Part shown: piece after piece, positions 160-17,937 of the stretch
Numbering within the stretch: the first letter of the stretch is position 1
Layout of the letters: each line of letters begins with the position of its first letter
Source of the DNA: an archaeon GW2011_AR18
GTDB taxonomy: Archaea > Nanobdellota > Nanobdellia > SCGC-AAA011-G17 > GW2011-AR18
NCBI GenBank assembly: GCA_000806155.1
Contig: JWKX01000009.1
Location: forward strand, 1 to 49,076
DNA: 49,076 bases
Direction: 5' to 3'
Notes under the pieces: generated by a model
What the model was told of the DNA's origin: nothing
Seen by the model: the letters and a program-made list of their open reading frames with translations, nothing else
Databases searched by the model: none
Translations under genes and position numbers: made by a program

Positions 160-921
160 ATGCTTAAAAAAAGGGGGCAAGTTAGCACTTTCGTAATAAT
201 AGGAGTTCTAGTATTATTTGTATTCATATTTGTATTCATGCTAAGGGATTCAATAAGAGAAAAATTCAGAGGAACAGTAGACAGAGAGGGATATCTTATC
301 TCACAAATGAACCAGATAAAAAAAACAATTAATACTTGTTTAGTAAAAGAGACAGATAAAGCAGTGAAATTATTGGGGGAGAGCGGGGGATATTTCAATC
401 CTGAAGATTATGTAACATATCATGGGACAAAAATAGCAAAATTATGTGAGAACATACCTCAAGAAAAAATATGCAATGCAAAACCATTAAGCATAGAAAA
501 TACAAATAAAGTATTAAAAAATTATCTACAAACAGAGATAAAAAACTGTATAGACTTAAACCCTTACAGAAAAAAAGATTACACACTTGAAGCAGGAGAA
601 TTAAATCTTGATGTCAGTATAAAAGAAACTGAAATCATAACACAACTAAATTATCCAATAACACTAAAATTAGACAATACAGAGGTAAAGAATGAAGAAA
701 TAATAAACAATGTGAAAATGCCATTAGGAAAAGCAATACAATTAACAAATACAATACTAAGCGAAGAAGCAATTACAGGGAATTTTGATGTCATGACAAT
801 GAGCTTATTATCTAAAGGAGAATATACGATAAGAGAGAGAAAAAGCTATCCAAATAAATTCTATATGATAGACTATAATGGGCTATATAAATTCAATATA
901 GGAATAGAGGGAGAAGCATGA
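160..921 (+). CDS. Type IV prepilin-like / class III signal peptide-like membrane-anchored protein (cassette 1)
   Basis: N-terminus MLKKRGQVSTFVIIGVLVLFVFIFVF: basic residues, then G-Q and a hydrophobic stretch; paralogous to 5566..6214. Confidence 0.7.
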   Translation: MLKKRGQVSTFVIIGVLVLFVFIFVFMLRDSIREKFRGTVDREGYLISQMNQIKKTINTCLVKETDKAVKLLGESGGYFNPEDYVTYHGTKIAKLCENIPQEKICNAKPLSIENTNKVLKNYLQTEIKNCIDLNPYRKKDYTLEAGELNLDVSIKETEIITQLNYPITLKLDNTEVKNEEIINNVKMPLGKAIQLTNTILSEEAITGNFDVMTMSLLSKGEYTIRERKSYPNKFYMIDYNGLYKFNIGIEGEA

Positions 922-3900
922 AAAAAAGCTTAGTATTATTCCAGATTTATTTAATAATAACATTAAGCATAGTATTTACACTATTATTAAATCCACAAAA
1001 TGTTTCTGCTGAGACTACAACACAAGATACAGCATCATGCTGTGCAAAAGCAAAAAACGGACAGAGCTGTGTAGGTGGAATAACACAAGAGCAATGTGAG
1101 CAGGGATACTCTCCTGTAAGCTGTGACAATCTAAATGAATGCAAGAACAGAGGGTGCTGCAAATTAGATGGAAATTGTGTCAAAGGAGTATTACAAGGAT
1201 CATGTTCAGGAGAATATTATAATGATGCAGAGTGCAATATAGGACAATGCCAGCCAAAATGCTGTGTACTAGGAAATGGATGCAGCCTAATGGGAGAGGA
1301 GAAATGCCAAGAACTAGGTGGAACAACAAATGATGCTGCAGATATAGGGAGCTGTAATCAGGTATGTGAGAGCAGATCAAAAGGATGCTGCAAATCAGAG
1401 GAAGGATGTTCATATGCATCAGGAGATAATTGCGGAGAAGAATTCTTTACAAACCAGGCATGCACAAGAGTATCAGGATGCACTTGTAATAATGATAATC
1501 CAACAACAGCATGTTCAGGTAATGATCTTTACAGTTATGATTCATGCGGAAATCCAACACTAAAAGAGAGGTGTGATGCAAGAGCAGGATCAATATGCGG
1601 AGACAAAGATGGAGATGGAAAATATTCATGCGAGGATATGAACTGCAAGAATACACAAGACAATCCATTAGTAGATGAAAATGGTGACGGAGTATTAAAC
1701 AACGATGGTAACTTAAGGAAAAATGGGGAGTCATGGTGTGAATACCAGAGTGCAGTAGGATTAGGATTAGATCTGCCAGGAACATCACATTACTTACATG
1801 CATGTATTAACGGAAAAGAAGAAGTCCAGATGTGCGGTGAGGGAAACAGAAACAAAATATGCGTCTATGATAACTCTGAACAAACAGCATTAAATTATAT
1901 ACAAGATTCAAGAGCGATGTGCATAGACAATGATTATCAAGAATGCCTATCCTGCAATGATGAGAACAATCTAAAAGAGGGAGAGACAAAAGCAGACTGT
2001 TGTGGAAAAGCAAGTCTATGCTCATGGATAGGACTAGGAGAAAAAAGCGGTATAACAGGTTCTGAAAGAGTATTAGGTTTTAATTTTTTATTACCAGTAA
2101 ATGCTAATATAAACTCTGAAGGAGTTATAACACTATCAGGTAAAAAAATAACATCAAGACTAAATGATGTCAAAATACTATTCATAAATAAAAATGATGA
2201 AACAGAATTAACAAAATCATTATCAGAAGCAGTACAAACAGAAAAACAAAAAACAGGAGATAAGATCTTATACAAATATGAATTAAAACTAAACCTTGAA
2301 AAAACAGTCACAGAAATAATGGATATCAATATATCACGAAAAGGAAAAAGTGAATTTCTAACTGTGATAGAAATAGAAGCAACAATAAAACAGGATGGAT
2401 ATTGTCTTCCATTTGTACCTCCAGGCAATATAGCAATAAAAAATATAGGAGCTAATAATGCTCTTTTAACAAAAGCTGAAGAGGAATGTGCATTAGGAGA
2501 TTCTAGAATTGCAACACAGTGGAAGAGAGAGGACTTTGAAGATGAATGGAGCTGCACAAAAAACTGCAATACTTATCCAGAAAGAAGCACAGCATACATA
2601 AACAACCAAAATTTCCTGTGCGGAACTTATGGAGATTGTGGAGCAAAATGGAATATATTAGAGAAGTGGGGTTCTGAAGGATATTATTTTGAATGCGGAA
2701 GCAGTACAGGACTAAAAAGCAAATATGAAGGAAAAGAGTGCAGCAGAAAAAAATATTATCTAGATACAGCACCAAATGAATTTAATTTTACAGTATTCAA
2801 ATATGCAGGGAGAGGTATAGTTGCTGAGTTAGAGGGAATAGACTCCTTCAGGAAAGATCCAGGCTTAGCTGTAGAAGGAAAAATAATCTATACATATGCA
2901 CTTGCAGTTTTGGTTGCTAATCCTGTTACCCTTATTATTGGAGGCATAGCAGCTTATTTTGAACTACCATTAATATGGGGAGATGATGTAAAAAGAAGAC
3001 ACTCTAGCAATAATTGTGATCCATGGGAACCTCCATTAGAGAATGAATGCTGGAGATGCCACACATATAATAATGAGACAAAAAGCGGAAGCACATGTGA
3101 TTATCTAAGCGGAGATTGCGGATTATTACCAAGCTCAAAAAATAAAAACTTTGCACTAGATGGATATGAATGTACAAGACAGATGTGCGCGAGCCTAGGA
3201 AAAGACTGTTTATGGCAAGATAGCAATCTAGGAGCAAGATGCATAGAACAACAAGATAGAGATGTAATAAGCCCGAAAATAAATGTCAAAGAAATAAAAT
3301 ATGAATGCCAAGACAACTGCAATATAAATAAAGAAGAAAACTCTGCAGGAATACAGGGAGCAACATATGTATCAGGAAAAATAAAACCAGGAAATAAAAT
3401 AACAATAACACTAGAGACAAGAAATCCAACAAATAATGATGCAGACCTAACAAGATGCAGATATACAACAGATGTTACACAAGAGTATCAGGATATGAGA
3501 ACATTTGATGATGGATTAGCATTTGAGCATACTCTAGAATTAAATTCATTGGAAATCGGAGAAAATAATCTTTATTTCGCATGCGAGGATGTATCAAATA
3601 ATGAGAACGAAGACAGATACTTAGTAAAGTTTGATATAGGAAAATATCCTGATAAAACAGCACCAACAATATTCCAGATAAAAACAATAACAGGATATGG
3701 AGACTGGAACAGAAATGAAGGGCAGAAAGATAGTGCTTATGTAATACACAATGGAAGTTCAATAAATCTACAATTAATGCTGGATGAACAGGTAAATGGA
3801 TGCAGATGGACAGACTCAAGCACGAACGTTGATTATGGACATATGACAAATGAACTAGTCTGTAATGAACCTGAAGATGCGACACAGCCATATACATGCA

Positions 3901-4565
3901 ATTCACAAATAGGAACTGAAAATGAGAACAGGATATGGTTCAGATGCCAGGATCTAGAATACAATAATAATACACAGAGCATACCAATAGAGGGATACAG
4001 GATAAAAAAATCAACTGAATTAAAACTCTTAGAGATAAAATGTCTATCTGAAAACAATGAGAAATGTGAAGGAACAATATATGATAATCAGATAACATTA
4101 CAGTTAACAACAGAGGGAGGAACTGAAGGAAATGCAAACTGCAAATGGAATCCAGGAACAGGATATGTAGAGTTTTTAGAGGGAGAGGGAACTAACTTAC
4201 ATAAACAACCAGGAATAAATCTAAAATCAGGAGAAAATAAAATAGAATATACTTGTGTGGATAAAGCAGGAAATAAACTAAATGGAGATGTACAATTCAA
4301 AGCAGAAAAAGATACAAGTGCTCCATTGATATTAAAAATATATCAGAGTGAAAACCAATTATTGATAAATACAAATGAAAATTCTGTCTGCAAATACTCA
4401 TTCAATAAAACATTTGATTTCAATACTGAGAATACATTATCAAAAGACAATAATGGAATTATACATTCTATAAACATAGACAAGGATAATAAATATTTTA
4501 AAATAGGATGCACAGACAGATATGAGAACAAGGCGGGACCATTTGAAGTGTATGTAAATAAATAG
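918..4565 (+). CDS. Giant secreted Cys-rich surface protein (1215 aa), CC-modules, Ca-binding-like loops, C-terminal Ig-like repeats
   Basis: Signal peptide MKKSLVLFQIYLIITLSIVFTLLLNPQNVSAE; four 'CC..C..C..C..C' modules; DKDGDGKYSCED loop; overlaps upstream gene by 4 nt; paralogous to 6184..10419. Confidence 0.8.
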   Translation: MKKSLVLFQIYLIITLSIVFTLLLNPQNVSAETTTQDTASCCAKAKNGQSCVGGITQEQCEQGYSPVSCDNLNECKNRGCCKLDGNCVKGVLQGSCSGEYYNDAECNIGQCQPKCCVLGNGCSLMGEEKCQELGGTTNDAADIGSCNQVCESRSKGCCKSEEGCSYASGDNCGEEFFTNQACTRVSGCTCNNDNPTTACSGNDLYSYDSCGNPTLKERCDARAGSICGDKDGDGKYSCEDMNCKNTQDNPLVDENGDGVLNNDGNLRKNGESWCEYQSAVGLGLDLPGTSHYLHACINGKEEVQMCGEGNRNKICVYDNSEQTALNYIQDSRAMCIDNDYQECLSCNDENNLKEGETKADCCGKASLCSWIGLGEKSGITGSERVLGFNFLLPVNANINSEGVITLSGKKITSRLNDVKILFINKNDETELTKSLSEAVQTEKQKTGDKILYKYELKLNLEKTVTEIMDINISRKGKSEFLTVIEIEATIKQDGYCLPFVPPGNIAIKNIGANNALLTKAEEECALGDSRIATQWKREDFEDEWSCTKNCNTYPERSTAYINNQNFLCGTYGDCGAKWNILEKWGSEGYYFECGSSTGLKSKYEGKECSRKKYYLDTAPNEFNFTVFKYAGRGIVAELEGIDSFRKDPGLAVEGKIIYTYALAVLVANPVTLIIGGIAAYFELPLIWGDDVKRRHSSNNCDPWEPPLENECWRCHTYNNETKSGSTCDYLSGDCGLLPSSKNKNFALDGYECTRQMCASLGKDCLWQDSNLGARCIEQQDRDVISPKINVKEIKYECQDNCNINKEENSAGIQGATYVSGKIKPGNKITITLETRNPTNNDADLTRCRYTTDVTQEYQDMRTFDDGLAFEHTLELNSLEIGENNLYFACEDVSNNENEDRYLVKFDIGKYPDKTAPTIFQIKTITGYGDWNRNEGQKDSAYVIHNGSSINLQLMLDEQVNGCRWTDSSTNVDYGHMTNELVCNEPEDATQPYTCNSQIGTENENRIWFRCQDLEYNNNTQSIPIEGYRIKKSTELKLLEIKCLSENNEKCEGTIYDNQITLQLTTEGGTEGNANCKWNPGTGYVEFLEGEGTNLHKQPGINLKSGENKIEYTCVDKAGNKLNGDVQFKAEKDTSAPLILKIYQSENQLLINTNENSVCKYSFNKTFDFNTENTLSKDNNGIIHSINIDKDNKYFKIGCTDRYENKAGPFEVYVNK

Positions 4566-4601
4566 AAACTTTTATTAACAACTGTTAATTAATTTTAACA
4601 T

Positions 4602-5135
4602 ATGTTAGAAATATTTAATCATCTAAAACCATTTTTCAATGACTGCTATAGAAAGATAAGTGTTAGAGAGTATGCAAAAATATTAGATATAAGCCCTCCT
4701 ACTGCTTCTATTTTACTTAATCTTTATTTTAAGGAAGGACTATTAAAAAGAGAAGAAGACAGAATATATCTATTTTTCAGTGCTGATAGAGACAGCTGGA
4801 TGTTTGTTGACTTATGCAAGACGTATTGGAAAAATCTGTTAGAGAAAATTGGATTTATAGAATATTTATCAAATGAATATAAAATAGCTAATATAATACT
4901 ATTTGGTTCATTATCTAAAGCAGAAGTAACAGAAAATTCTGATATTGATATGGCAATAATATCTGTAAGTGATAAAAAAATAAATTTCCAAAAATTTGAG
5001 AAGAAACTAGGCAGGAAGATACAAATTTTCAGATTTGACTCAATCAAGGATATAAAGAATAAAGAATTATTAAATAATATACTAAAAGGATATAATCTAT
5101 CTGGAGCAGAGTATGGATTGGGAAAAATGCAATAA
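4602..5135 (+). CDS. HTH-nucleotidyltransferase (MNT) protein of a MNT/HEPN pair
   Basis: N-terminal wHTH-like ISPPTASILLNLYFKEGLLKRE; NTase motif ILFGSLSKAEVTENSDIDMAII (GSx10DxD). Confidence 0.8.
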   Translation: MLEIFNHLKPFFNDCYRKISVREYAKILDISPPTASILLNLYFKEGLLKREEDRIYLFFSADRDSWMFVDLCKTYWKNLLEKIGFIEYLSNEYKIANIILFGSLSKAEVTENSDIDMAIISVSDKKINFQKFEKKLGRKIQIFRFDSIKDIKNKELLNNILKGYNLSGAEYGLGKMQ

Positions 5136-5526
5136 ACAAAAATTAGTAAAAGAAATAAAAACAGATCCAGAACTTGTCAAATCTTTGATAATGCAAAGTA
5201 ATAATAAACTCTATTCAAGCAATTTATTAGAATTAGATATTAGAACTGCAGCTTCAAAATTTATATTAGTATATGACTCTTTGAGAGAACTTTTAGAGGC
5301 TTTGGCAATAAATAAAGGTTATAAAATCTATAATCATGATTGTTATGCTTCATTCTTAAATGAAATAGTAAAAGATGAGAATTCAGCAAAAATATTTGAT
5401 GAGCTAAGAAAAATAAGAAACGGAATCAATTATTATGGAAATACTATCTCATTGAAAGAGGGAGAGGCTTTAATCAAGCAGACAAAAATCTTAATCAATA
5501 TTGTAATGAAATATTTAGAAAAATAA
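5113..5526 (+). CDS. HEPN-like domain protein, partner of MNT
   Basis: Overlaps the MNT gene by 23 nt; all-helical; ELRKIRNGINYYG motif resembling HEPN. Confidence 0.7.
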   Translation: MDWEKCNKQKLVKEIKTDPELVKSLIMQSNNKLYSSNLLELDIRTAASKFILVYDSLRELLEALAINKGYKIYNHDCYASFLNEIVKDENSAKIFDELRKIRNGINYYGNTISLKEGEALIKQTKILINIVMKYLEK

Positions 5527-5565
5527 ATAAAAACATTTAAATATAAACTTAAGAGGATATTAACT

Positions 5566-6214
5566 ATGAATAAAAGAGGGCAGGTAAGTGTTTTTGTTAT
5601 ATTAGGAATAGTTCTCATATTAGTTGTCGCTTTAGTATTATTCGCAAGAAAACAGACAGGCATAGGAATACCATCATTCCAGTTCTTACAGGATAAATTA
5701 AAACCAATTGAAACTAATTTGAAAGAGTGTGTAAACAAACAAAAAGATACAACAGTAAAAACTACCACCATTAAAAACAATGACTGATAATCTGAATAAT
5801 GTATTAAGAAATGAGGTAGAAAATTGCATAAATAAAGATCTATTAGAATCACAAAAATTTGGATATGAAGTAAGAGGAAGCAAAGCATTAACAACAAAAA
5901 CAGAAGCAGTAGGATCAGGAATATTAGTTACTGTAAATTATGATATACAATTAAAAAAAGATGAGGATATAACAAGCCTAAAACCAGTAAATGTTGTATT
6001 AGATATCCCATTAAAAGAATTATATGATGTAAGCTATGATATAGTAAATTCAGAAGCTAAATTCGGCAATTTTGAACAATTATTCTATATGCTAAACAAA
6101 AAAGGAAAATATTTAATAAATGTTGAGAGACCATTCCCTAACAAAGTCTATAAAATAAATAAAGATGGAAACGATTATGAACTATGGTTTGCTGTAGAGG
6201 GAGAGAGTTCATGA
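5566..6214 (+). pseudogene. Prepilin-like protein (cassette 2), frameshifted and internally shortened
   Basis: ORFs 5566..5787 (MNKRGQVSVFVILGIVLILVVALVLF) and 5780..6214 in the +1 frame together align with the 160..921 protein. Confidence 0.65.
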
Positions 6215-9200
6215 ATAAATATAAAAGAGTGATAAGTTTTATAGAAATGTTCTTAGTAATCAGTCTAGTATTCTCAATAAGTTTTAGTTTAAGTTCTCCT
6301 ATTGTAAATGCAGATTCAACTGTAGGATGCTGCGAGAAAACAAAATCAGGAGAGTACTGCCAGACAGCTTCTCAGGATAATTGTGCTTCAGGATCAAGTT
6401 TTGCACCAACAAGCTGTGAACAGACAAGTTATTGTAAATCAGGATGTTGTGCAGGAATAGGTGGATATTGTTATAATAATTATCCAAAAGCATTATGTGA
6501 AAAACAATATGGAGGAAGTTATAGTGCAGATCCATCATGTAATGTACAGGAGTGTAATGTAGGATGTTGTGTAATAGGAACACAAGCTTCAATATTAACA
6601 AAAGGAAGATGTTTAAATGAGACAAGCAGATTCCCAGATCTAGAATTAGATTTCAGAGCAGATGTACAAGATGAGTCTTCATGTTTAAATTTAGCTAAAA
6701 ATACAGAAAAAGGATGCTGTGTAACTGATAGTGGATGCAGTTACGGAGCAAAATCAACATGCAATGTACCTTCTGCTGTCAATGGAACAGGGTTTTATAA
6801 AGATAAATATTGTGCTTCATTACAGGGATTATGTTCTTGTGCTTCTGCTGATCATACAACAAATGGAAAAGGAAATACAATGTGTTTACCAGATGATGAT
6901 AGTGTATACTGGAAAGATAGTTGTGGAAATCCAGAAGGAATAAAAGAAAAATGCGATTACAGTAAAGGAAGTCTTTGCGGTGATAGTGATAAAGATGGAG
7001 TATTTAGTTGTGAAAGTTTAAAATGTGAAGGACAAGATGCTAACTCTGATAATAGTAAGAAATTAAGTGTTAACTTAGAAGGATATCACGGAACAGATCC
7101 AGCAGAATTGAAAACAAATGAAATCTTAAATGGAGAGAGCTGGTGCCAATCAGATAGTAAAGAACAAGATGCAAATAAATTATATGGACAGGATCCAGTA
7201 GGATCAAGATATTATAGAAGTTTATGTATCAATGGAAAAGAATTAGTAGAACCTTGTAAAGATTACAGACAAGAATTCTGTTATTCAGCTAATGTAGATG
7301 TACCAAGAAAAGATGAACAAGGAAATGAAATATTAGGTGGAATATATACTGAAGGAAGATGTTTGAAAAATGAATGGCAATCATGTATAGATAGTTGTAA
7401 TACAGCAGATTCATTTACAATGAGCAAAGGAACATATGAAGATGCATTAAAAAAAGATGAAGAATGTTGTGGAGATAGAACAAAAAGAGATTGTCAATGG
7501 ACAGGAAGCAAATGTTCACCAGCAGTAAGTCCAGGAGCAAAATTCTGGCAAGGTGAAGGATCAGATACTTGTGGAAAAGCAAATTTAGAATGTACAGCAA
7601 TGTTTGTATGTGGTGGATGGAATAGAGTTTTAGGACTATGTGATAATTCTCCTGATGAACAAGCAGGATCTGGAGTTGCTATCGGAGGAGTCTTTGGAGC
7701 AGGTGCTGGTATTGCTACTGGAGTAACTTTAGGAACTGTAGGGTTACCTGTTGGTGTTGCTGTAGCTGTTACTGCTTTAGCAACTGGATTAAAAAGTGGA
7801 TTTCAAGGTGGATGGCAATTAGTATACGGAGCAGAATGTTTCAGTCAAGATTATTTACAAGCAGCAAATAACTTATGTAGAAGCTATGGGGATTGCGGAG
7901 CAGATTATAATTATTTAATAGATGATGGAAACGTTCCTGAAAACTTAAAATTAACAAAATATGGATTTTCTAATACTGAGAAAGTAAATGGTGAATTAGC
8001 TAATGCTATTAGGTCAGATTCAAAAACTGAAGAAGGAAGAAATAACGGATTAGAATACAAATATGGAAAATCAAATGAAGTTCCTGGAAATCTAAGCTCA
8101 AATCCAGATTGGAGTAAAGGTAGCACATTCTTTAGGTTTGAGAGTAATACTAAAAAAGGAGAGAGAGGAAATAGGTTCTTCAGAGCATTATATTTAGGTG
8201 ATGAGAAAAAGTTACTTGGTGCCGGGGCAGTTTCATTGTCAACAGGTATAGGTTTGGCTTTCTTAACTCCTTTAGCAACAGGACAAGCTTTAGGGATAGG
8301 ACTAGGATTAACCCCTCATGGATTTTTACTTAGAGAGGTATTTGGTTTGGTACCTGCGATAGAAAAAACTACATTTAATCAGGGTATAGTAAGTGCTGAA
8401 GAAGCTGCTGCACACGAAGTTGCAACTAAAGCAATAGATGAATCTAGTAAAACTTTAGGAGAGATAACTGCTAGAAGAGTTGCTGCTGACGAAGCTGTAG
8501 CTCAAGCTAATGTAGAATTTACAAAATTAGTAACAGAAGAAACTCTTAAGAAAACTTCATTCGAGCAAGCTGAGAAAGCTGGAGCAGATGCTGTAGTACA
8601 AGAATTAGAGAGAAGTCTTGAGAGTGTGGCACTACAAAAACAAGCTGCAGAACAAACATTAACTAACGCTCAAGAACAAGCAGCTCAAGTTTTAGCTCAA
8701 GAAGTAGATGCTGAACTTGCTCATGAAGCTATAAAACAAACATCAGAAAAAGTTGTCTTTTCAACTACCACACAAGCTTTAGTAGCATTTAATTCAATAA
8801 TGTGGGCTTATACAATATTTGAAATTGGAAATACATTATTAGAAAAAACTGAGAAAGTTACAGTAAGTACAACATGTCAACCATGGCAAGCACCAGCAGT
8901 AAAAACAGCAGACAAAGATCAATGTGAAAGATGTAATCCAAGTTATACAGATTATTTGAATAATGATAAAACTCCAAAAGATGTCAAAGCACTAAAAGCA
9001 TGTTCAGAATATAGATGCAAAAGTTTAGGAGCAAGCTGTGATTTAGTAAATAAAGGATCAACAGAAGAACAATGTGTAAGCTTATCAAAATATGATGTAA
9101 ATAGTCCAGTAATAAAACCATGGAAGGAAGGATTCAGTAAAGAATTACAAGATAAAGTACAAGAAACAAGTTCAGGACTAAAAATAAATGGAGAGGTAAA

Positions 9201-10419
9201 GATATATGATAAGTTTTTAGTAGCATTACAGACAGATGAGCCAGCACAATGTAAAATGAGCTTTGATCATAGTATAAGATATCCTGAAATGCAAAATGTT
9301 TATTTCATGAGCAACACATTCAAGTATTATCATGCACAACAGATGTATTATCCAGCAACAAAAAATGCAACAGCAGATGGATTGAAATTAACTGGCGGAG
9401 GAAATTATAAAGTGTATATAAGATGCCAAGATGCTGTTGGAAATGTAAATGAAAAAGATTATGTAGTAGAATTTGATGTAAGCAAAGAACCAGATTTCAC
9501 AGCACCAACAATAGTTAGTACAAATTTCGGACAGGAAACATACTTAAGATATGGAACAAACAGAACAGATGTAACATTATATGTAAATGAACCTAGTGAT
9601 TGTAAATGGTCAACAACACCATTAGATTACAAAGTAATGCCAGAACAAAACAAATGTGTTGCAAGCAGACTAAACAGTCTAGGATATTATGAATGCCAGA
9701 ATGTAGGAACACAACAAATAGGAGCATTCGGTCCTGGAATAAATACAACAGGAATGAATAAAGGAGATAATAAATTTGTATACTTCAAATGCCAGGATAA
9801 ATCAGAAAATAAAAATTATAACAAAGAGGCATATAGACTAACATTGAAAGCAAGCGAGCCATTAGAGATAGAAACAAAAGAGCCATCTGGAATAATAAAA
9901 ACATCTCAACAACAAGCTAATTTAACAATAAAAGTAACAACAGATGGTGGAGCATTGTTAAATGGAAATGCAAATTGCAAATATACACAACAAGAGTCAT
10001 TAAAAAATAATTTAGGATCAATGACACCATTTTTAAAAACAAACTCCAGCATACATATACAACCATGGAGTCCACCAACAGGAAGACAGGATATATATAT
10101 AGGATGTGAGGATATAGCAGGAAATAATGCATTTACAAATATAAATTTCACAATAGAAAATGATGTAGTACCACCATCAATAGTAAAAATATATACAGAT
10201 GAGAGCTTACAACCACCAGTATTTACAATAGAATTAAATGAAAAAGCAGTATGCAAGGATAGTATAGACGGAATATTTGATTATGAAACATCTGGAAATT
10301 TAATGATTAGTGATGGAAATGTACAAAAGACAAGCACACCTGGATCAAGTGTTTATTATGTTTCTTGCAAAGATGAATTCGGAAACAAACTAGAGAATGC
10401 AAGAATACAATTTGCATAA
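6184..10419 (+). CDS. Giant secreted Cys-rich surface protein (1411 aa), paralog of 918..4565 with added Gly-rich hydrophobic and Ala/Glu coiled-coil regions
   Basis: Signal-like N-terminus MNKYKRVISFIEMFLVISLVFSISFSLSSPIVNAD (start likely 6211); CC-modules; DSDKDGVFSCESLKC; C-terminal repeats with DFTAPTIV and C..D..GN motifs. Confidence 0.8.
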   Translation: MVCCRGREFMNKYKRVISFIEMFLVISLVFSISFSLSSPIVNADSTVGCCEKTKSGEYCQTASQDNCASGSSFAPTSCEQTSYCKSGCCAGIGGYCYNNYPKALCEKQYGGSYSADPSCNVQECNVGCCVIGTQASILTKGRCLNETSRFPDLELDFRADVQDESSCLNLAKNTEKGCCVTDSGCSYGAKSTCNVPSAVNGTGFYKDKYCASLQGLCSCASADHTTNGKGNTMCLPDDDSVYWKDSCGNPEGIKEKCDYSKGSLCGDSDKDGVFSCESLKCEGQDANSDNSKKLSVNLEGYHGTDPAELKTNEILNGESWCQSDSKEQDANKLYGQDPVGSRYYRSLCINGKELVEPCKDYRQEFCYSANVDVPRKDEQGNEILGGIYTEGRCLKNEWQSCIDSCNTADSFTMSKGTYEDALKKDEECCGDRTKRDCQWTGSKCSPAVSPGAKFWQGEGSDTCGKANLECTAMFVCGGWNRVLGLCDNSPDEQAGSGVAIGGVFGAGAGIATGVTLGTVGLPVGVAVAVTALATGLKSGFQGGWQLVYGAECFSQDYLQAANNLCRSYGDCGADYNYLIDDGNVPENLKLTKYGFSNTEKVNGELANAIRSDSKTEEGRNNGLEYKYGKSNEVPGNLSSNPDWSKGSTFFRFESNTKKGERGNRFFRALYLGDEKKLLGAGAVSLSTGIGLAFLTPLATGQALGIGLGLTPHGFLLREVFGLVPAIEKTTFNQGIVSAEEAAAHEVATKAIDESSKTLGEITARRVAADEAVAQANVEFTKLVTEETLKKTSFEQAEKAGADAVVQELERSLESVALQKQAAEQTLTNAQEQAAQVLAQEVDAELAHEAIKQTSEKVVFSTTTQALVAFNSIMWAYTIFEIGNTLLEKTEKVTVSTTCQPWQAPAVKTADKDQCERCNPSYTDYLNNDKTPKDVKALKACSEYRCKSLGASCDLVNKGSTEEQCVSLSKYDVNSPVIKPWKEGFSKELQDKVQETSSGLKINGEVKIYDKFLVALQTDEPAQCKMSFDHSIRYPEMQNVYFMSNTFKYYHAQQMYYPATKNATADGLKLTGGGNYKVYIRCQDAVGNVNEKDYVVEFDVSKEPDFTAPTIVSTNFGQETYLRYGTNRTDVTLYVNEPSDCKWSTTPLDYKVMPEQNKCVASRLNSLGYYECQNVGTQQIGAFGPGINTTGMNKGDNKFVYFKCQDKSENKNYNKEAYRLTLKASEPLEIETKEPSGIIKTSQQQANLTIKVTTDGGALLNGNANCKYTQQESLKNNLGSMTPFLKTNSSIHIQPWSPPTGRQDIYIGCEDIAGNNAFTNINFTIENDVVPPSIVKIYTDESLQPPVFTIELNEKAVCKDSIDGIFDYETSGNLMISDGNVQKTSTPGSSVYYVSCKDEFGNKLENARIQFA

Positions 10420-10513: not shown

Positions 10514-11347
10514 ATGGACTCACATAATGCTATTGCAGTTTTTGAAGGAAAAAATATAAGAAAAACATGGCATAATAATGAATGGTGGTTTTCTGTAGTT
10601 GATATTACAGGTATTCTTTCAGAAAGTCCAGATCCGAGAAATTATTGGAAAGTATTAAAATTTAGGTTAAAAGATGAAGGAAGTGAGGCGGTTACAAATT
10701 GTAACCAACTGAAATTAATTGCATCAGATGGTAAATATTATGAAACTGATTGTATTAATACAGAAGGCGCTTTTAGGATTATTCAGTCTATACCCTCTGC
10801 TAAAGCTGAACCTTTCAAGTTATGGCTAGCTAAAGTTGGATATGAACGTGTTAAAGAAATAGAGAACCCAGAACTTGCTCAGCAAAGGATGAAAGAAATC
10901 TATAGACAAAAAGGATATTCTGAAGAATGGATAGAAAAAAGAGTAAGAGGTATAGTTGTAAGACAGGAATTAACTGATGAATGGAAAAAAAGAGATGTAA
11001 AGTAAGATGTAGACTTTGCAATATTAACAAATGAAATCACGAAAGCAACTTTTGATAAAAATGTTGAAGAATATAAAAAATTCAAAGGATTAAAAAAAGA
11101 AAATTTGCGTGATCATATGGATGACATGGAATTAATATTAACAATGCTTGGTGAAGCTTCAACAACTAGGCTTACAAGAGAGAGAAATTCTGAAAAATTC
11201 AAAGAATTAAAGGAAGATGCTAAGGATGGTGGAGAAGTAGCTGGCTCTGCAAGGAAAAATATAGAAATAAAACTAGGAAAAAGTGTCCTTAAAAAAGATA
11301 ATTACTTACAAAAACCTGAGAAACAGAAAAGATTAGAGAAAAAATAG
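10514..11347 (+). pseudogene. BRO-N / DNA damage-inducible protein D-like gene with one in-frame TAA (11003-11005)
   Basis: ORFs 10514..11005 and 11105..11347 are in the same frame; open sequence after the stop reads DVDFAILTNEITKATFDKNVEEYKKFKGLKKENLRDHMDDMELILTMLGEAST. Confidence 0.75.
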
Positions 11348-11540: not shown

Positions 11541-12065
11541 ATGAAAAAGGGGCAGCTGATGTCACAACCGTTGACATATATTTTTGCGATATTAGTCATA
11601 GGGATGATATTAGTTTTTGGATGGAGTTCAATAAAAAATTTATTAGGATTAGGAGAACAGGTAGGAGAGACGAAATTCATCAATGACTTAAAGAAAAATG
11701 TTGATGATACTTCAAAATTATATCCAGGAACAAGCATAGAATGTAGTTTTGTGAAAAAAACAGGAACAACAAATAACAGGTGTGAATTGCTTTTACCAGA
11801 TAATATAAAAGGAATGTGTTTTGCAGATACAAAAAATGAGGTAGATTTTAATAATATAATATTTAAAGATATAGAAGAAGAAATAAGAGTATATCAAACA
11901 ACTGGTGATAAAAATATATTTTTTTCTACTTTAAAAAATAAAATGAATCCATTATATTTAGAAAAGCTCACTACTAAAATTCCTTTCTGTTTAGATTTTT
12001 TTAAAAAAGACCAGAAAATAATATTAGAAAACAAAGGAAGAGTTGTTGAAGCAACAAAAGCTTAG
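11541..12065 (+). CDS. Prepilin-like protein 1 of cluster
   Basis: MKKGQLMSQPLTYIFAILVIGMILVFGW N-terminus. Confidence 0.65.
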   Translation: MKKGQLMSQPLTYIFAILVIGMILVFGWSSIKNLLGLGEQVGETKFINDLKKNVDDTSKLYPGTSIECSFVKKTGTTNNRCELLLPDNIKGMCFADTKNEVDFNNIIFKDIEEEIRVYQTTGDKNIFFSTLKNKMNPLYLEKLTTKIPFCLDFFKKDQKIILENKGRVVEATKA

Positions 12066-12073
12066 GTGAAAAT

Positions 12074-13096
12074 TTGAATAAGAAAGCACAAGGAGAACAA
12101 TTCAACTGGATATTTGTAATAGTCTCTGGAGCAATAATATTAGGATTCTTTACAATGTTCACTTTCCAATACATAACATTACAGGAAAAAAGACAGCATG
12201 TAGAGAGCCTAAGATTTTTTGGAAATGTATTAGGAATAGCTGAAAAACTAAATATAGGGGGAAGCGGTTCATCAGTAAATAGTTATGATACACAGGGATT
12301 AAGATTCGGATATAATGTCCCATTAGAATATTATTGTGATGAAACAGATGCAAGAATAATCATCGGAGGGAAAAATAAGGATTTCATACCATCATATAAT
12401 CTAAAAGATGAGGTAGTATTCATAAATGAAAAAATGATAGTAAATGGATTAGACTTAGGATTAATGCCATGGAAATTCCCATTCCAGATAACAAATTTTA
12501 TTTATTTATCAGATCCAAAAAAACAATATTATGCAGTATATGACCAATCAAGCAAAGAATATGTTGATAATCTAGAAGAAAAATATTCTGTAATATTCAA
12601 CCTATTCAATGATGGTTCAATAAACAGATATGAAAAAACAGAAATAAATAAATTAAAACCAAAAGAGAACTCAAAAATAATAATATTCAGCAACAGAAAA
12701 CCCTCAGAAAATAAAATAAAAGAATTAATAGGAGAAAATAAAAATGTAAATCTTATATATGTAGATTATAATAATAAAAAAATAAATTATTTTGAAGATG
12801 ATAATTTCGGAGAGGATATTGATTATTACAGTGATGAGATAATGCTGGGAGCATTTTTTACTGATAATCAAGAAAATTACCAATGCTCAATAAACAGGGC
12901 AAAGAAAAAATTATCAACTGTTGCAGTACATTATTCTGAGAGAACAAAATTACTGAAAAGAGTTGATACAAAGACAACATGCCAATATGACCTAATAGAT
13001 AATAGTCTAGTATCTTTAGCTAAAGGGAATTATGAAGTTGTAGAAAATTTAAGACAACAAAACAATCAGGGAGCTGGGTGTCTGTGGGTATTCTAA
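12074..13096 (+). CDS. Prepilin-like protein 2 of cluster (TTG start)
   Basis: NKKAQGEQFNWIFVIVSGAIILGFFTMFTF N-terminus. Confidence 0.65.
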   Translation: MNKKAQGEQFNWIFVIVSGAIILGFFTMFTFQYITLQEKRQHVESLRFFGNVLGIAEKLNIGGSGSSVNSYDTQGLRFGYNVPLEYYCDETDARIIIGGKNKDFIPSYNLKDEVVFINEKMIVNGLDLGLMPWKFPFQITNFIYLSDPKKQYYAVYDQSSKEYVDNLEEKYSVIFNLFNDGSINRYEKTEINKLKPKENSKIIIFSNRKPSENKIKELIGENKNVNLIYVDYNNKKINYFEDDNFGEDIDYYSDEIMLGAFFTDNQENYQCSINRAKKKLSTVAVHYSERTKLLKRVDTKTTCQYDLIDNSLVSLAKGNYEVVENLRQQNNQGAGCLWVF

Positions 13097-13608
13097 AATC
13101 TAAAAAAGGACAACTGCAGTTACAGGAGACAATATTAGCTGTCTTTGTATTTGTGATAATCATAATAATAGGGATGTTTGTATTCATAAATTATCAAAAC
13201 AACAGCATAAAAAAAGACTTTGATGATTTCAACAGAATAAAAACAAGGATCAATATCATAACACTAAATGATATACCCGAACTAGGATGCAGCAAATCAG
13301 GAATAAAAGAGAACTGTGTAGATGACTTAAAACTAATAGCTTTCAAAAACCTAGCAGAGAGAAGGAAGGCAGAATATGCAGAGAGCTATGGATATATGAA
13401 CATAACATTCTATCAAGTATATCCTGAGAAAAATAATAAAGAGTGTGATAAAGACAATCTAGAAAATTGTGGGGTATGGAATATATATGAGAACAAACCA
13501 AAAACAATAACTAGCAGAATAAGAGAGGCAACGCCTATATCATTATATAATGTAAAAGAGGATAAATACAAGATTGCACTTATGATCGTTGAGGTCTATA
13601 ATGTTTAA
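13078..13608 (+). CDS. Prepilin-like protein 3 of cluster (GTG start)
   Basis: KSKKGQLQLQETILAVFVFVIIIIIGMFVF N-terminus; overlaps neighbours. Confidence 0.65.
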   Translation: MSVGILKSKKGQLQLQETILAVFVFVIIIIIGMFVFINYQNNSIKKDFDDFNRIKTRINIITLNDIPELGCSKSGIKENCVDDLKLIAFKNLAERRKAEYAESYGYMNITFYQVYPEKNNKECDKDNLENCGVWNIYENKPKTITSRIREATPISLYNVKEDKYKIALMIVEVYNV

Positions 13609-14065
13609 TTCTAGATTTAAGATGGGACAGATGGAGATAGTCGGCTTGATGGTTGTTGTCATAATCATAATAATAGGAGCATTATTCTATCTGAAATTTG
13701 GAATACTTCATCAGGAACAGGATAATACTGACTTAAGCATAGAGCAGAGCTATACTATAAACTGGCTTAATTCAATACTCAATGTTAATGTATGTAATAA
13801 TACTATAAGCTATAAGAGTTCATTGATAGAATGTTATAACGATGGAATTGTTTGTAATGAGAGTGCGTGTGATTATGCAAAAACAGAAAGCTCTAATATA
13901 ATAAATTCAATAGGATTAAAAGATTATAGGAACTATTCTTTCTGGATACAGAGTGGAGATGATTTAAAACATATAAATAATGAGTGCAAAACTGGAGTGA
14001 AAGCAGATGAGGTAATATTAAGTGACAACGGCGATGAATATACAGTAAACTTTAGAATTTGTTAG
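13589..14065 (+). CDS. Prepilin-like protein 4 of cluster
   Basis: KMGQMEIVGLMVVVIIIIIGALFYL N-terminus; overlaps upstream gene. Confidence 0.65.
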   Translation: MRSIMFNSRFKMGQMEIVGLMVVVIIIIIGALFYLKFGILHQEQDNTDLSIEQSYTINWLNSILNVNVCNNTISYKSSLIECYNDGIVCNESACDYAKTESSNIINSIGLKDYRNYSFWIQSGDDLKHINNECKTGVKADEVILSDNGDEYTVNFRIC

Positions 14066-14285: not shown

Positions 14286-16601
14286 ATGCAAGAAAAATTT
14301 GCTTTAAAAAAGACATTAAGAAAAGTAGCTGCAGTAGGAACTAGCATAGCTATGGTAGGAGTAACCTTAAGCGGCGCTTTAGCAGTTGGGACATTAGGAA
14401 ATTATCCGAGTCCTTTCACAAAAAATTTAGGTGAAACTGTTGTAGTATGGGGAGCAGACACAGATAGTGCAGCTGTACAAGATGTTCTAGCTGGATTACC
14501 AGGTGGATCAACTTCAGGAACAACAACACAAGTAGTAGTACCAGGAAAGGTATTATACGGTGTAAACAGTTTAGGAACACAAAAAGTTGATGACTTATTT
14601 ATGAAAGGTGATACAGAAGATATGGCTTTAGGGACACTATTAAATGTTTCTACAGAATTTGGAAGTGTACTACAAGACAATCAAGTAGCAGGTTTATTGG
14701 ATAGTTCAGTAAACATTGATATTGGATCAGTAAGCGATGATTATTCACTGCATGAAGAGGTATTCTTCAATGGTGCAGGAACAAACGGTTCAAGTGTAGA
14801 ATCAGGTTTGACATATGATAGAAGCGAAGAATGGAAAGAGAGAACATTCGTACAAATACCAACAAGTAGCTTTGGTTACAGATTCAAGTTTGATAAAAAC
14901 TTAAAGAGTGGAAACTTCTTGAATGATTCAACAACCGATGATCCAATACTATTACCTTTCTTAGGAAAGAACATAGAAATTACTGCTGCGACAAATACAT
15001 CAGTCACTGCTAATGTCGGTGAGGCACACAGATTAAGTGCTGGAGATAGTGTAGTAGTAAATGTTGGCGGAGTACAAAGAACAGTAACATTAAAAGGAAC
15101 ATCAGCTAGTAAGGCAGATGTAGAAGTAGATGGACAACCTTTGACAATTACTGAAGATAGTACAAGAACATTTAGATTCACTGAAAAAAACGTTCAGGTA
15201 AGAGTACAGGATGTATTCAATGAGGATGGAATTGCAAACGATAGAGCAACATTACTTATTGGAGAAGACGCAAGAAAAACATACAACTCAGGTGATGAAT
15301 ACATCGGGGAAGATGAGGATGACCCTGTATGGACATGGAACTTAGTAGGTTTAATGACTGCTACCCCAACTTTGGAAGTTAAAAATGCAATATCCATAAA
15401 TAATTGGGCTGAGACAGATAATCCGGCAGTAAAACATGCTTTATACGTTGGAGATTACTTATGTCTACCAAACAATTATGTATGCATAGTATTCGAAGGA
15501 ATGAGTGAAGCAGATGAAATGTTCCAACAATACGAGATAACATCAGATGCAGATAGGACTCTATCACATGCAGATGGTGATACAACTAAGAGAGAGGGTG
15601 CAAGAACAATCTCTTTTAAGACAGTTGGTCTAACTGATCAAGGTTTTGTAGCTTCAGGAACTGATACAGATGAAGTTGTTATGGCAATAAATGAAAGTGA
15701 GATTACTTTCAGTAGAAAGGAACAAGACGGAAATGAATTCATTCAGTTCGCTAATGTTTCAATACCTGGTGGTGAACAAAATTTTGTTATGCCTCAAATG
15801 AACGATGTATTTACTTTTGATTATAAGAGTAGTAGCATACCTGTTGATTTTGCTTACTCTAATAATACTAATAAAGGTAACTTAACACTAGACTTTGGAA
15901 CTGCAGATGCTGTAACAGTAAACACAGATGGAAATGTTGTTATACAGTTTGAGAATGATACAAAAAATTCATTCACTTACTTAGGTGATAGCGACTCTGA
16001 TACAACAACAGCAATTGATTTAAGGTATAATCATATGGGAACACTATATGATATCTCTGGAAAAGAAGAGAACTTGAGGACAAAGCATGGTTTAGTAATC
16101 TATGACCCTAAATCAACCCAGTCATCAGATAGCTTGAAAATTGCTTTGCCAGGTGATGCAGTTGACTATAAAGCATTGGTAAGAGTAGCAAGACCTAAGG
16201 AAGGAACTACAAGCAGTGGTACAGTAGTTAAATCAGCATCAGTAACAATGAGAGATACTGATGTAGCAGACTTAACTGCTTACAATGTAGTAGCTGTAGG
16301 TGGACCTTGTGTAAACAGAGCAACAAGACAATTGTTGAACATGGCAGTAGATAGTCCAGCATGTGGAACAGACAGCGGATTAACTGGTGCAGGTGACGCA
16401 GTTGTTGAGTTAAAAGCTAATGGCGCAAAGTCAGCATTGTTAGTATGGGGATGGGAAGCAGACGATACAAGAAGAGCTGCTGTATTATTAAAGAACCCAG
16501 ACACATTCAAACAAAAGCTAACTGAAGCTGGAAAAACAGACCAAACAGCAGTTACAGTAAAGGGAACAGACCTAAGTTTATCTGGAATAACAGTAGCTTA
16601 A
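14286..16601 (+). CDS. S-layer protein (771 aa)
   Basis: Secretion signal MQEKFALKKTLRKVAAVGTSIAMVGVTLSGALA, acidic/Thr/Ser/Gly-rich body, strong leader and terminator. Confidence 0.8.
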   Translation: MQEKFALKKTLRKVAAVGTSIAMVGVTLSGALAVGTLGNYPSPFTKNLGETVVVWGADTDSAAVQDVLAGLPGGSTSGTTTQVVVPGKVLYGVNSLGTQKVDDLFMKGDTEDMALGTLLNVSTEFGSVLQDNQVAGLLDSSVNIDIGSVSDDYSLHEEVFFNGAGTNGSSVESGLTYDRSEEWKERTFVQIPTSSFGYRFKFDKNLKSGNFLNDSTTDDPILLPFLGKNIEITAATNTSVTANVGEAHRLSAGDSVVVNVGGVQRTVTLKGTSASKADVEVDGQPLTITEDSTRTFRFTEKNVQVRVQDVFNEDGIANDRATLLIGEDARKTYNSGDEYIGEDEDDPVWTWNLVGLMTATPTLEVKNAISINNWAETDNPAVKHALYVGDYLCLPNNYVCIVFEGMSEADEMFQQYEITSDADRTLSHADGDTTKREGARTISFKTVGLTDQGFVASGTDTDEVVMAINESEITFSRKEQDGNEFIQFANVSIPGGEQNFVMPQMNDVFTFDYKSSSIPVDFAYSNNTNKGNLTLDFGTADAVTVNTDGNVVIQFENDTKNSFTYLGDSDSDTTTAIDLRYNHMGTLYDISGKEENLRTKHGLVIYDPKSTQSSDSLKIALPGDAVDYKALVRVARPKEGTTSSGTVVKSASVTMRDTDVADLTAYNVVAVGGPCVNRATRQLLNMAVDSPACGTDSGLTGAGDAVVELKANGAKSALLVWGWEADDTRRAAVLLKNPDTFKQKLTEAGKTDQTAVTVKGTDLSLSGITVA

Positions 16602-16687: not shown

Positions 16688-17314
16688 ATGAAAAAGAAAA
16701 AATATTCTAAAAATATAACCAGTGAAGAAAAAGAAAACAAGCAGAGTTTTTTCAATAAAAAAAACCTAAGTATGATAGTAGTATTCGGAATATTAGGAAT
16801 AATGATATTATCAGCAGTAAGCTTTAGTTTCTTAGGGAAAGATAATACCCCACAAGGGAATAACGAAGATAATTATAACGGCTATAAATTTGTACAAAAT
16901 GAGGGATACTGGACTTCAAATATTGGCGGGAAAAACATACAGTTCCAGTATCATCCAAGAGATTTAGAAGAGATAAACATAGATGCTGCGACAAACTATA
17001 ATCTAAAAGACAAGATCTATATATTATTTAACTCAAAAGAGAATAAAGAGACAGACCAGGATCTGCAGAGAGCAAGAGCACTATTACTGACTATAAAACA
17101 ACAGGTATATTTCGGATGTGCAAATGAACAAGAATGCGGTGATATGCCAATAATTAACTGCAAAACAGAAAAAAACAGTGCAATATACTTCAAACAATCA
17201 ACAGAAAACAAAGCATATACAGAAGATAATTGCTTAATACTAGAATACAAAATTGATGATAAAAACAAATTAATAGAAAAATTATATTACACAAAAGCAG
17301 GAGTGATAATATGA
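16688..17314 (+). CDS. Membrane-anchored protein, paralog of the downstream gene
   Basis: Single N-terminal TM; INCKTEKNSAIYFKQSTENKAYTEDNCLILEY motif shared with 17311..17937. Confidence 0.6.
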   Translation: MKKKKYSKNITSEEKENKQSFFNKKNLSMIVVFGILGIMILSAVSFSFLGKDNTPQGNNEDNYNGYKFVQNEGYWTSNIGGKNIQFQYHPRDLEEINIDAATNYNLKDKIYILFNSKENKETDQDLQRARALLLTIKQQVYFGCANEQECGDMPIINCKTEKNSAIYFKQSTENKAYTEDNCLILEYKIDDKNKLIEKLYYTKAGVII

Positions 17315-17937
17315 AAAGAAAAGTAGTATTCTATGCATTAGTCTTTTTATTATTGTTCTTAATAGGATTCACAGCAACAGTAATAATAAACAAGATATTA
17401 GACAAAGGTTACACTTATGAAGGAAAGAAAGGGGATTACAGAATAGATGTATCAAAAATAGGGAATGTGACAATCTATAGCGCACATGTTGAAAAAGGAA
17501 ATATAGAATACATATATCATTTCAGAAACAAACCAGAAGAGTTAAAGAATATCTATCTTGAAGATAATTTACTTGATAAGATAAACAGACCAAAAGGTGT
17601 CAGAAACGTCTATGTCACAAGGGATATAGAGATAAATAAACAAACAGACAATAATGTCATAATAGCAGGAGCTGCTTTTGAGGCAATATTAGGGACAGCT
17701 GATTATAGCCTTTACCAGATACCATTAAAAAATGCTTATACAACAAGGGAAGACACAAAAACTCCAAAGATCACATGCAAGAATGTCTCACCAGTAGATG
17801 CAGTAATCTATATGAAGCTGGCAAATGAAACAAAAGTCTATAGCGAAAACGATTGCATAATAGTGCAGGGAATAGATTCTAATACATTGATAAAAGCAGG
17901 AGAAAAATTAGGATATTATCTAATAGGGATATACTAG
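17311..17937 (+). CDS. Membrane-anchored protein, tandem paralog of 16688..17314
   Basis: N-terminal TM; ITCKNVSPVDAVIYMKLANETKVYSENDCIIVQG motif; ATGA overlap with upstream gene. Confidence 0.6.
   Translation: MKRKVVFYALVFLLLFLIGFTATVIINKILDKGYTYEGKKGDYRIDVSKIGNVTIYSAHVEKGNIEYIYHFRNKPEELKNIYLEDNLLDKINRPKGVRNVYVTRDIEINKQTDNNVIIAGAAFEAILGTADYSLYQIPLKNAYTTREDTKTPKITCKNVSPVDAVIYMKLANETKVYSENDCIIVQGIDSNTLIKAGEKLGYYLIGIY

Follow-up and report, generated by a model that had tools for sequence, protein, structure and literature searches.

A conserved archaeal surface locus of pilin-like and giant cysteine-rich proteins, a candidate minor-pilin and tip-adhesin complex in archaeon GW2011_AR18

The archaeon GW2011_AR18 carries a locus in which small pilin-like proteins are encoded next to giant, secreted, cysteine-rich proteins, ahead of four further pilin-like genes (PIL_A–D) and an S-layer gene. 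By analogy with characterized systems, we put at roughly 0.55 the probability that the products form a minor-pilin/tip-adhesin complex of the type IV filament kind, similar to PilY1/FimU-PilVWX or Epd and drawn from unrecognised families. The proposal, made in a sequence-only reading of the same DNA, that this is a dedicated cell-surface locus is well founded, since both the small–giant unit and its linkage to PIL_A–D and the S-layer gene are conserved.

Organization of the surface locus

The window, i.e., the whole stretch of DNA that was analysed, is contig JWKX01000009.1 of assembly GCA_000806155.1 (archaeon GW2011_AR18), positions 1 to 49,076 of the forward strand. Its relevant features are as follows.

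160..921, +, small 1, pilin-like (MLKKRGQVSTFVIIG...), 253 aa (open reading frame; GQ leader, TM helix, and Cys residues shared with 40 relatives)
918..4565, +, giant 1 (paralogue A), secreted Cys-rich protein, 1215 aa, 72 Cys (open reading frame; homology to giant 2; A clade of the tree)
3261-4562, +, four Ig-like repeats of giant 1, matching those of giant 2 (eight-repeat alignment)
4602..5526, +, inserted MNT/HEPN-like nucleotidyltransferase/partner pair of the toxin-antitoxin type, 4602-5135 and 5113-5526 (MntA antitoxin model NF047752, 3e-7, below its cut-off)
5566..5787, +, small 2, N-terminal fragment with leader and TM helix (frame stops at 5787; small-family homology)
5780..6214, +, small 2, C-terminal fragment in another frame (alignment with relatives; BLASTP to small 1, 6e-14)
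6211..10419, +, giant 2 (paralogue B), secreted Cys-rich protein, 1402 aa counted from ATG 6211, 64 Cys (B clade of the tree)
9094..10416, +, four Ig-like repeats of giant 2 (eight-repeat alignment; all-beta model; Big_13/Y_Y_Y in relatives)
10514..11005, +, BRO-N domain gene, 3' of giant 2 and 5' of the pilin quartet (Pfam Bro-N, 3e-13)
11541..12065, +, PIL_A, pilin-like (MKKGQL leader and TM helix; conserved place beside the last giant)
12074..13096, +, PIL_B, pilin-like, 340 aa (NKKAQ leader and TM helix; 219/279 phylum genomes)
13078..13608, +, PIL_C, pilin-like, QETI motif (KKGQ leader; family-conserved Glu at +6)
13589..14065, +, PIL_D, pilin-like, Glu at +3 (MGQMEIVG leader; weak Pilin_N match, 0.0036, below cut-off)
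14286..16601, +, S-layer protein gene (S_layer_C, 9.6e-5, just below cut-off; position conserved)
16688..17937, +, two small single-TM genes, also 3' of the S-layer gene in relatives (homologues in the same place)

The open reading frames reported earlier at 160-921, 918-4565, and 6184-10419 are all present, and two details of the second unit had to be revised. The stretch 5566-6214, taken before as one small gene, consists of two fragments (5566-5787 and 5780-6214) in different frames, and the start of giant 2, placed at 6184, is likelier to be ATG 6211, from which the signal peptide lines up with those of relatives.

The MNT/HEPN-like pair probably does not belong to the surface system, and the BRO-N gene is probably an unrelated insertion. 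Among relatives, the pair occupies differing sites within the surface locus (five loci), which gives the locus the look of a recurrent insertion target. Farther along the window, an intein with a LAGLIDADG domain interrupts a MoxR-type AAA gene (23810-26653) inside a BatA/VWA/DUF58 block.

Giant cysteine-rich proteins

The two giants are paralogous, aligning in BLASTP at 2e-42 over the N-half and at 3e-34 over the C-half. As the sequence-only reading had it, they share CC modules, a GESWC...CINGKE block, a central hydrophobic region, a C(D/Q)PW...C..C module, and four C-terminal Ig-like repeats. The EF-hand-like loop on the same list fared worse; the motif, DxDxDGxxxCE, is non-canonical and occurs in only part of the own family, and the EF-hand was dropped as a defining feature of the giants, not being conserved among relatives.

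An alignment of 18 relatives and hydrophobicity scans of 80 giants define a common anatomy. A signal peptide is followed by the Cys-rich N-half, which opens with a CC motif, and by the GESWC...C.NG and GDCG blocks. Next, in most cases, are one or two hydrophobic segments, and then the C.PW..P...C..C module and the four Ig-like repeats, each of which contains Cys. Pfam searches of 18 giants at E<0.01 found Big_13 in 8 and Y_Y_Y in 7. A model of the Ig-like repeat is all-beta, with seven strands (pLDDT 71.8), and a fold search with it against the PDB gave weak beta-sandwich matches alone, none at E<=0.001. No PilY1 or DUF2341 Pfam domain was found in the two window giants, the 18 aligned giants, or three distant ones. 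VKOR, sought as an oxidase for the many disulfides of the giants, was not found in the own genome.

In ten loci of relatives, belonging to several families, the giant gene is split in two and each half has its own signal peptide, which provides comparative evidence that both halves of the giant are extracellular; the hydrophobic segment is mostly on the C-half. The signal peptides and the gene order place a large secreted protein alongside minor-pilin-like genes. In many of the giants, the hydrophobic part of the signal peptide contains a conserved F-[QE]-I (as in L040, L061, and L072, and in the C-halves of L112 and L113); this is unusual in a signal peptide of the ordinary kind and calls pilin leaders to mind. 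The possibility that the giants are themselves pilins was set aside, since the signal peptides end, ahead of the CC motif, in an A-x-A type sequence, which speaks for cleavage by ordinary signal peptidase.

Small and quartet pilin-like proteins

Small 1 overlaps giant 1 by 4 bases and is homologous to small 2 (BLASTP 6e-14). In 40 small relatives, an invariant G-Q after a basic leader is followed by a TM helix and then by a part with conserved Cys residues. Position -1 is G/S/A in 88/92 homologues and position +1 is Gln in 86/92; with an A24 peptidase in the genome, these counts bear out the prepilin-type N-terminus proposed for the small proteins. Position +5 is Phe in 77/92 homologues, in place of the Glu of many pilins. 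Glu at +5 is common, yet confined to a subset of archaeal pilins (PMC4371748), and since it is optional in archaea, its lack lowers, without excluding, pilin membership of the small proteins. A single-sequence structure model of small 1, made with no alignment, reached a pLDDT of only 45.6.

Alignment with relatives shows that small 2 lacks about 40 middle residues (QGG...C.N...C.N in relatives), including two conserved Cys. This disruption may be genuine decay or an assembly error. The small gene of another locus (L068:6285-7088) is also split, apparently with no residues lost.

A [KR][GAS] processing site and a hydrophobic stretch of ~20 residues are found in the set of small and PIL_A–D proteins. 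The residue at -1 is G/A/S in 48/54 PIL_D sequences and in 47/56 of PIL_A; the leaders of PIL_B and PIL_C are less uniform under an automatic processing-site rule. Glu is present at fixed positions of the leader, +6 in PIL_C and +3 in PIL_D. None of the small, giant, and PIL proteins of the window has a match above cut-off in Pfam, NCBIfam, or the PDB sequences. Eight loci additionally encode, 3' of PIL_D, proteins of 80-110 aa with about six Cys and a KKGQGLSLNVIIIA-like leader; these proteins, which follow distant quartets, could be major pilins.

Gene order and pairing in relatives

Gene order was read in 60 stretches from relatives, one of which (L124) is without the locus. The usual order is PCNA–(giant A or small–giant A)–small–giant B–PIL_A–PIL_B–PIL_C–PIL_D–S-layer–small TM genes, with one to three small–giant units per locus between PCNA and the quartet; this arrangement is conserved throughout the order and extends to further orders of the class. 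The window begins at a contig end, 159 bases ahead of small 1 (contig C9), and in the same genome PCNA stops 161 bases short of the end of contig C2 (42478-43385). With PCNA ending one contig and small 1 starting the other, the PCNA-first order probably spans the contig break; an additional unit upstream of the window could also be missing, since the window starts at a contig end. Contigs of many relatives likewise end within the surface locus, probably on account of tandem repeats.

Pairing was counted for the 97 giants with both an N-terminus and upstream context, in loci chosen by the presence of a giant or PIL_B, so that the counts describe such loci rather than all genomes. A small gene directly precedes the giant in 2/2 cases in the window, 14/14 in the own family, 21/21 in other orders, and 31/60 in the rest of the order. 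In all, 68/97 giants have a small gene beside them, so that the refuting condition set in the sequence-only reading, giants mostly without such a neighbour, did not hold. The strict pairing proposed there applies to 16/16 giants of the window's family and 21/21 of other orders, and fails for the giant A on the PCNA side in most other families of the order. The unpaired giants are mostly this paralogue, together with a few B copies separated from their small gene by an inserted one. Conversely, 68 of the 75 small genes with context have a giant next, the commonest spacing being a 4-base overlap (27/68 pairs). Recurrence of the small–giant unit in dozens of genomes is far above chance.

Divergence and breadth

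In a tree of 80 giants, most PCNA-side (A) copies lie apart from the pilin-side (B) copies, and each group spans many families of the order, from which it follows that the A/B duplication is ancient. The earlier description of a duplicated cassette stands as regards two paralogous units, and needs amending in that small 2 is broken and the duplication is not recent. Distances in the small and giant trees correlate (r = 0.65, 53 pairs). When small genes were swapped between the units of one locus, the mean r was 0.58, and 1/2000 permutations reached the observed value. Small and giant genes duplicate and diverge as units, although co-divergence alone is no proof of contact.

Breadth was assessed in 279 genomes of the phylum, all in one class; taken with a small genome, an archaeal PCNA, and the S_layer_C similarity, this would suggest DPANN archaea of the Nanobdellota type. 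The giant profile matched 200/279 genomes at 1e-5, many of them weakly, and the PIL_B profile matched 219/279; judged by these profiles, a distant form of the block recurs through most of the sample. Among 19 distant PIL_B loci, an open reading frame of at least 900 aa with at least 30 Cys lies no more than 3.5 kb upstream of the quartet in 16. A small homologue is present in 13 of the 19, directly before such a Cys-rich frame in nine; one distant small protein aligned with the family profile over 202 columns (2.7e-16). In the distant giants, too, a CC motif follows the signal peptide; TSP3-type repeats occur in some of them. Viral contigs, searched with both alignments, gave no match.

Assembly machinery in the genome

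The own genome encodes one A24 prepilin peptidase with a GGGD motif (PF01478, 3.9e-14, contig C14), a TadC/GspF pair on contig C13 adjoining two further KKG-type genes, and T2SSE-type ATPases. The bacterial prepilin leader, Pfam N_methyl, is absent from it. Peptidase and GspF-type genes are each present in 58/61 relatives, including those where a giant was not found; the machinery is therefore compatible with the locus and not specific to it.

Comparison with known systems

The PilY1/FimU-PilVWX clusters encode one giant and four or five minor pilins, whose complex primes and tips the pilus (PMC7541494). As in the locus described here, a large secreted protein is encoded together with four or five pilin-like ones, a genome has several alternative clusters or units, and the motor is encoded elsewhere. 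Unlike PilY1, the present giants have no PilY1-type Pfam domain, with Ig-like repeats and far more Cys residues instead, and the locus is distinguished by a single shared pilin quartet, a dedicated small protein per giant, and an S-layer gene within the block.

In archaeal Clade 1 T4P loci, genes for two large adhesin-like proteins accompany those for at least five minor pilins (PMC4858521), a combination also seen here. The processing sites of the Methanococcus Epd pilins are KGQV, KGQL, KGQI, and RAQI (PMC4371748), so that the KG|Q leader with Gln+1 is the same as in EpdA-E. In contrast to these systems, DUF2341 was not found in the giants here, the pilin families are not recognised, the small proteins are without Glu at +5, and the motor genes lie outside the locus. 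The Nanobdellota archaeon YN1, which appears to come from the same broad group, has an attachment organelle, a structure on its surface for which the constituent proteins are described as unknown (PMC11420986); the likeness to the present locus is confined to these two points. By analogy, the view that the locus would work like minor pilins with a tip adhesin is well supported, while its membership in the known families of that kind is only partly supported.

Proposed mechanism and alternative explanations

In the proposed mechanism, the small RGQ protein and PIL_A–D would enter the membrane and be cut by the A24 peptidase after [KR][GAS], and the TadC/ATPase machine, whose genes lie outside the locus, would pull the processed proteins into a short (pseudo)pilus. 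The giant, secreted by means of its own signal peptide and folded with some 30 disulfides, would be bound by its cognate small protein, which has Phe in place of the Glu5 of many pilins, and kept on the pilin-complex tip at the surface of the S-layer. Its exposed Cys-rich and Ig-like parts may then act as an adhesin, possibly toward a host cell. Two or three small–giant units per quartet would be exchangeable tips, as suggested by the dedicated small protein of each giant on one shared quartet. Export of the giant by the small protein is unlikely because the giants carry their own signal peptides; an anchor or tip role fits better.

Several lines of evidence favour this tip complex. The small–giant–PIL_A–D–S-layer order is kept within the order and in other orders, with 4-base overlaps in 27/68 pairs; the class III leader has Gln+1 as in Epd pilins, and the genome supplies an A24 peptidase, a TadC pair, and T2SSE ATPases. 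The giants are secreted, as the split halves with their separate signal peptides indicate, and co-diverge with the small proteins (1/2000 swaps), and the layout equals that of PilY1 with four minor pilins and of the archaeal T4P loci with two adhesins. The case is weakened by the lack of Pfam pilin and PilY1/DUF2341 matches, by the low confidence of the small model (pLDDT only 45.6), and by a machine that lies outside the locus and is also present in relatives where a giant was not found. It is further weakened by giant A having no small protein of its own in most families of the order, by the damage to small 2, and by the central hydrophobic segment of the giants, which could anchor them with no partner.

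That last feature suits a surface complex with no filament, in which the pilin-like proteins would be mere membrane anchors that fix the giants and the S-layer protein in the envelope, without extension. Some proteins with class III signal peptides are not pili, the S-layer gene belongs to the conserved block, and the filament motor genes are located elsewhere, all of which agree with such an arrangement. Five distinct pilin-like families, with a fixed leader Glu in PIL_C and PIL_D, nevertheless exceed the needs of simple anchoring, and the 80-110 aa pilin-like genes after the quartet in distant loci point the same way; we regard a complex of this kind as possible, with the odds clearly against it. 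It is improbable that the small, giant, PIL, and S-layer genes are kept together for co-expression only, with neither a common complex nor a host role. Functionally unrelated PCNA is also part of the conserved order, so that adjacency alone proves nothing, and block duplication of genes predicts correlated trees; yet the 4-base overlaps and the repeated joint duplication of small and giant genes speak for more than neighbourhood, and the small–giant–quartet unit survives in distant loci where PCNA was not seen adjoining. Least probable, and by some way doubtful, is secretion driven by a pseudopilus, with the five pilin-like proteins forming a type II-like piston and the giant released as its substrate: the parts list does match minor pseudopilins with a large exoprotein, and the N-half of split giants has no hydrophobic anchor, but Archaea have no outer membrane and the giants have their own signal peptides, so a piston is unneeded for their export.

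Biological implications

The archaeon is tiny and probably host-dependent, and from lifestyle alone, a role of the locus in host contact is plausible. A much broader reading would make the locus a host-recognition filament tip that serves attachment across most of the DPANN phylum, with small–giant units as exchangeable specificity modules on an invariant four-pilin base and its products as the pilins of the nanoarchaeal type IV pilus ATPases; taken as a whole, it strikes us as unlikely at present. Five pilin-like families and one giant adhesin-like family, with no name in Pfam or NCBIfam, appear to be present in most of the sampled genomes of the phylum, and the block is a prime candidate for the means by which these archaea grip other cells. 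The question of host attachment would thereby be reduced to a short list of genes whose products could be localised in existing co-cultures.
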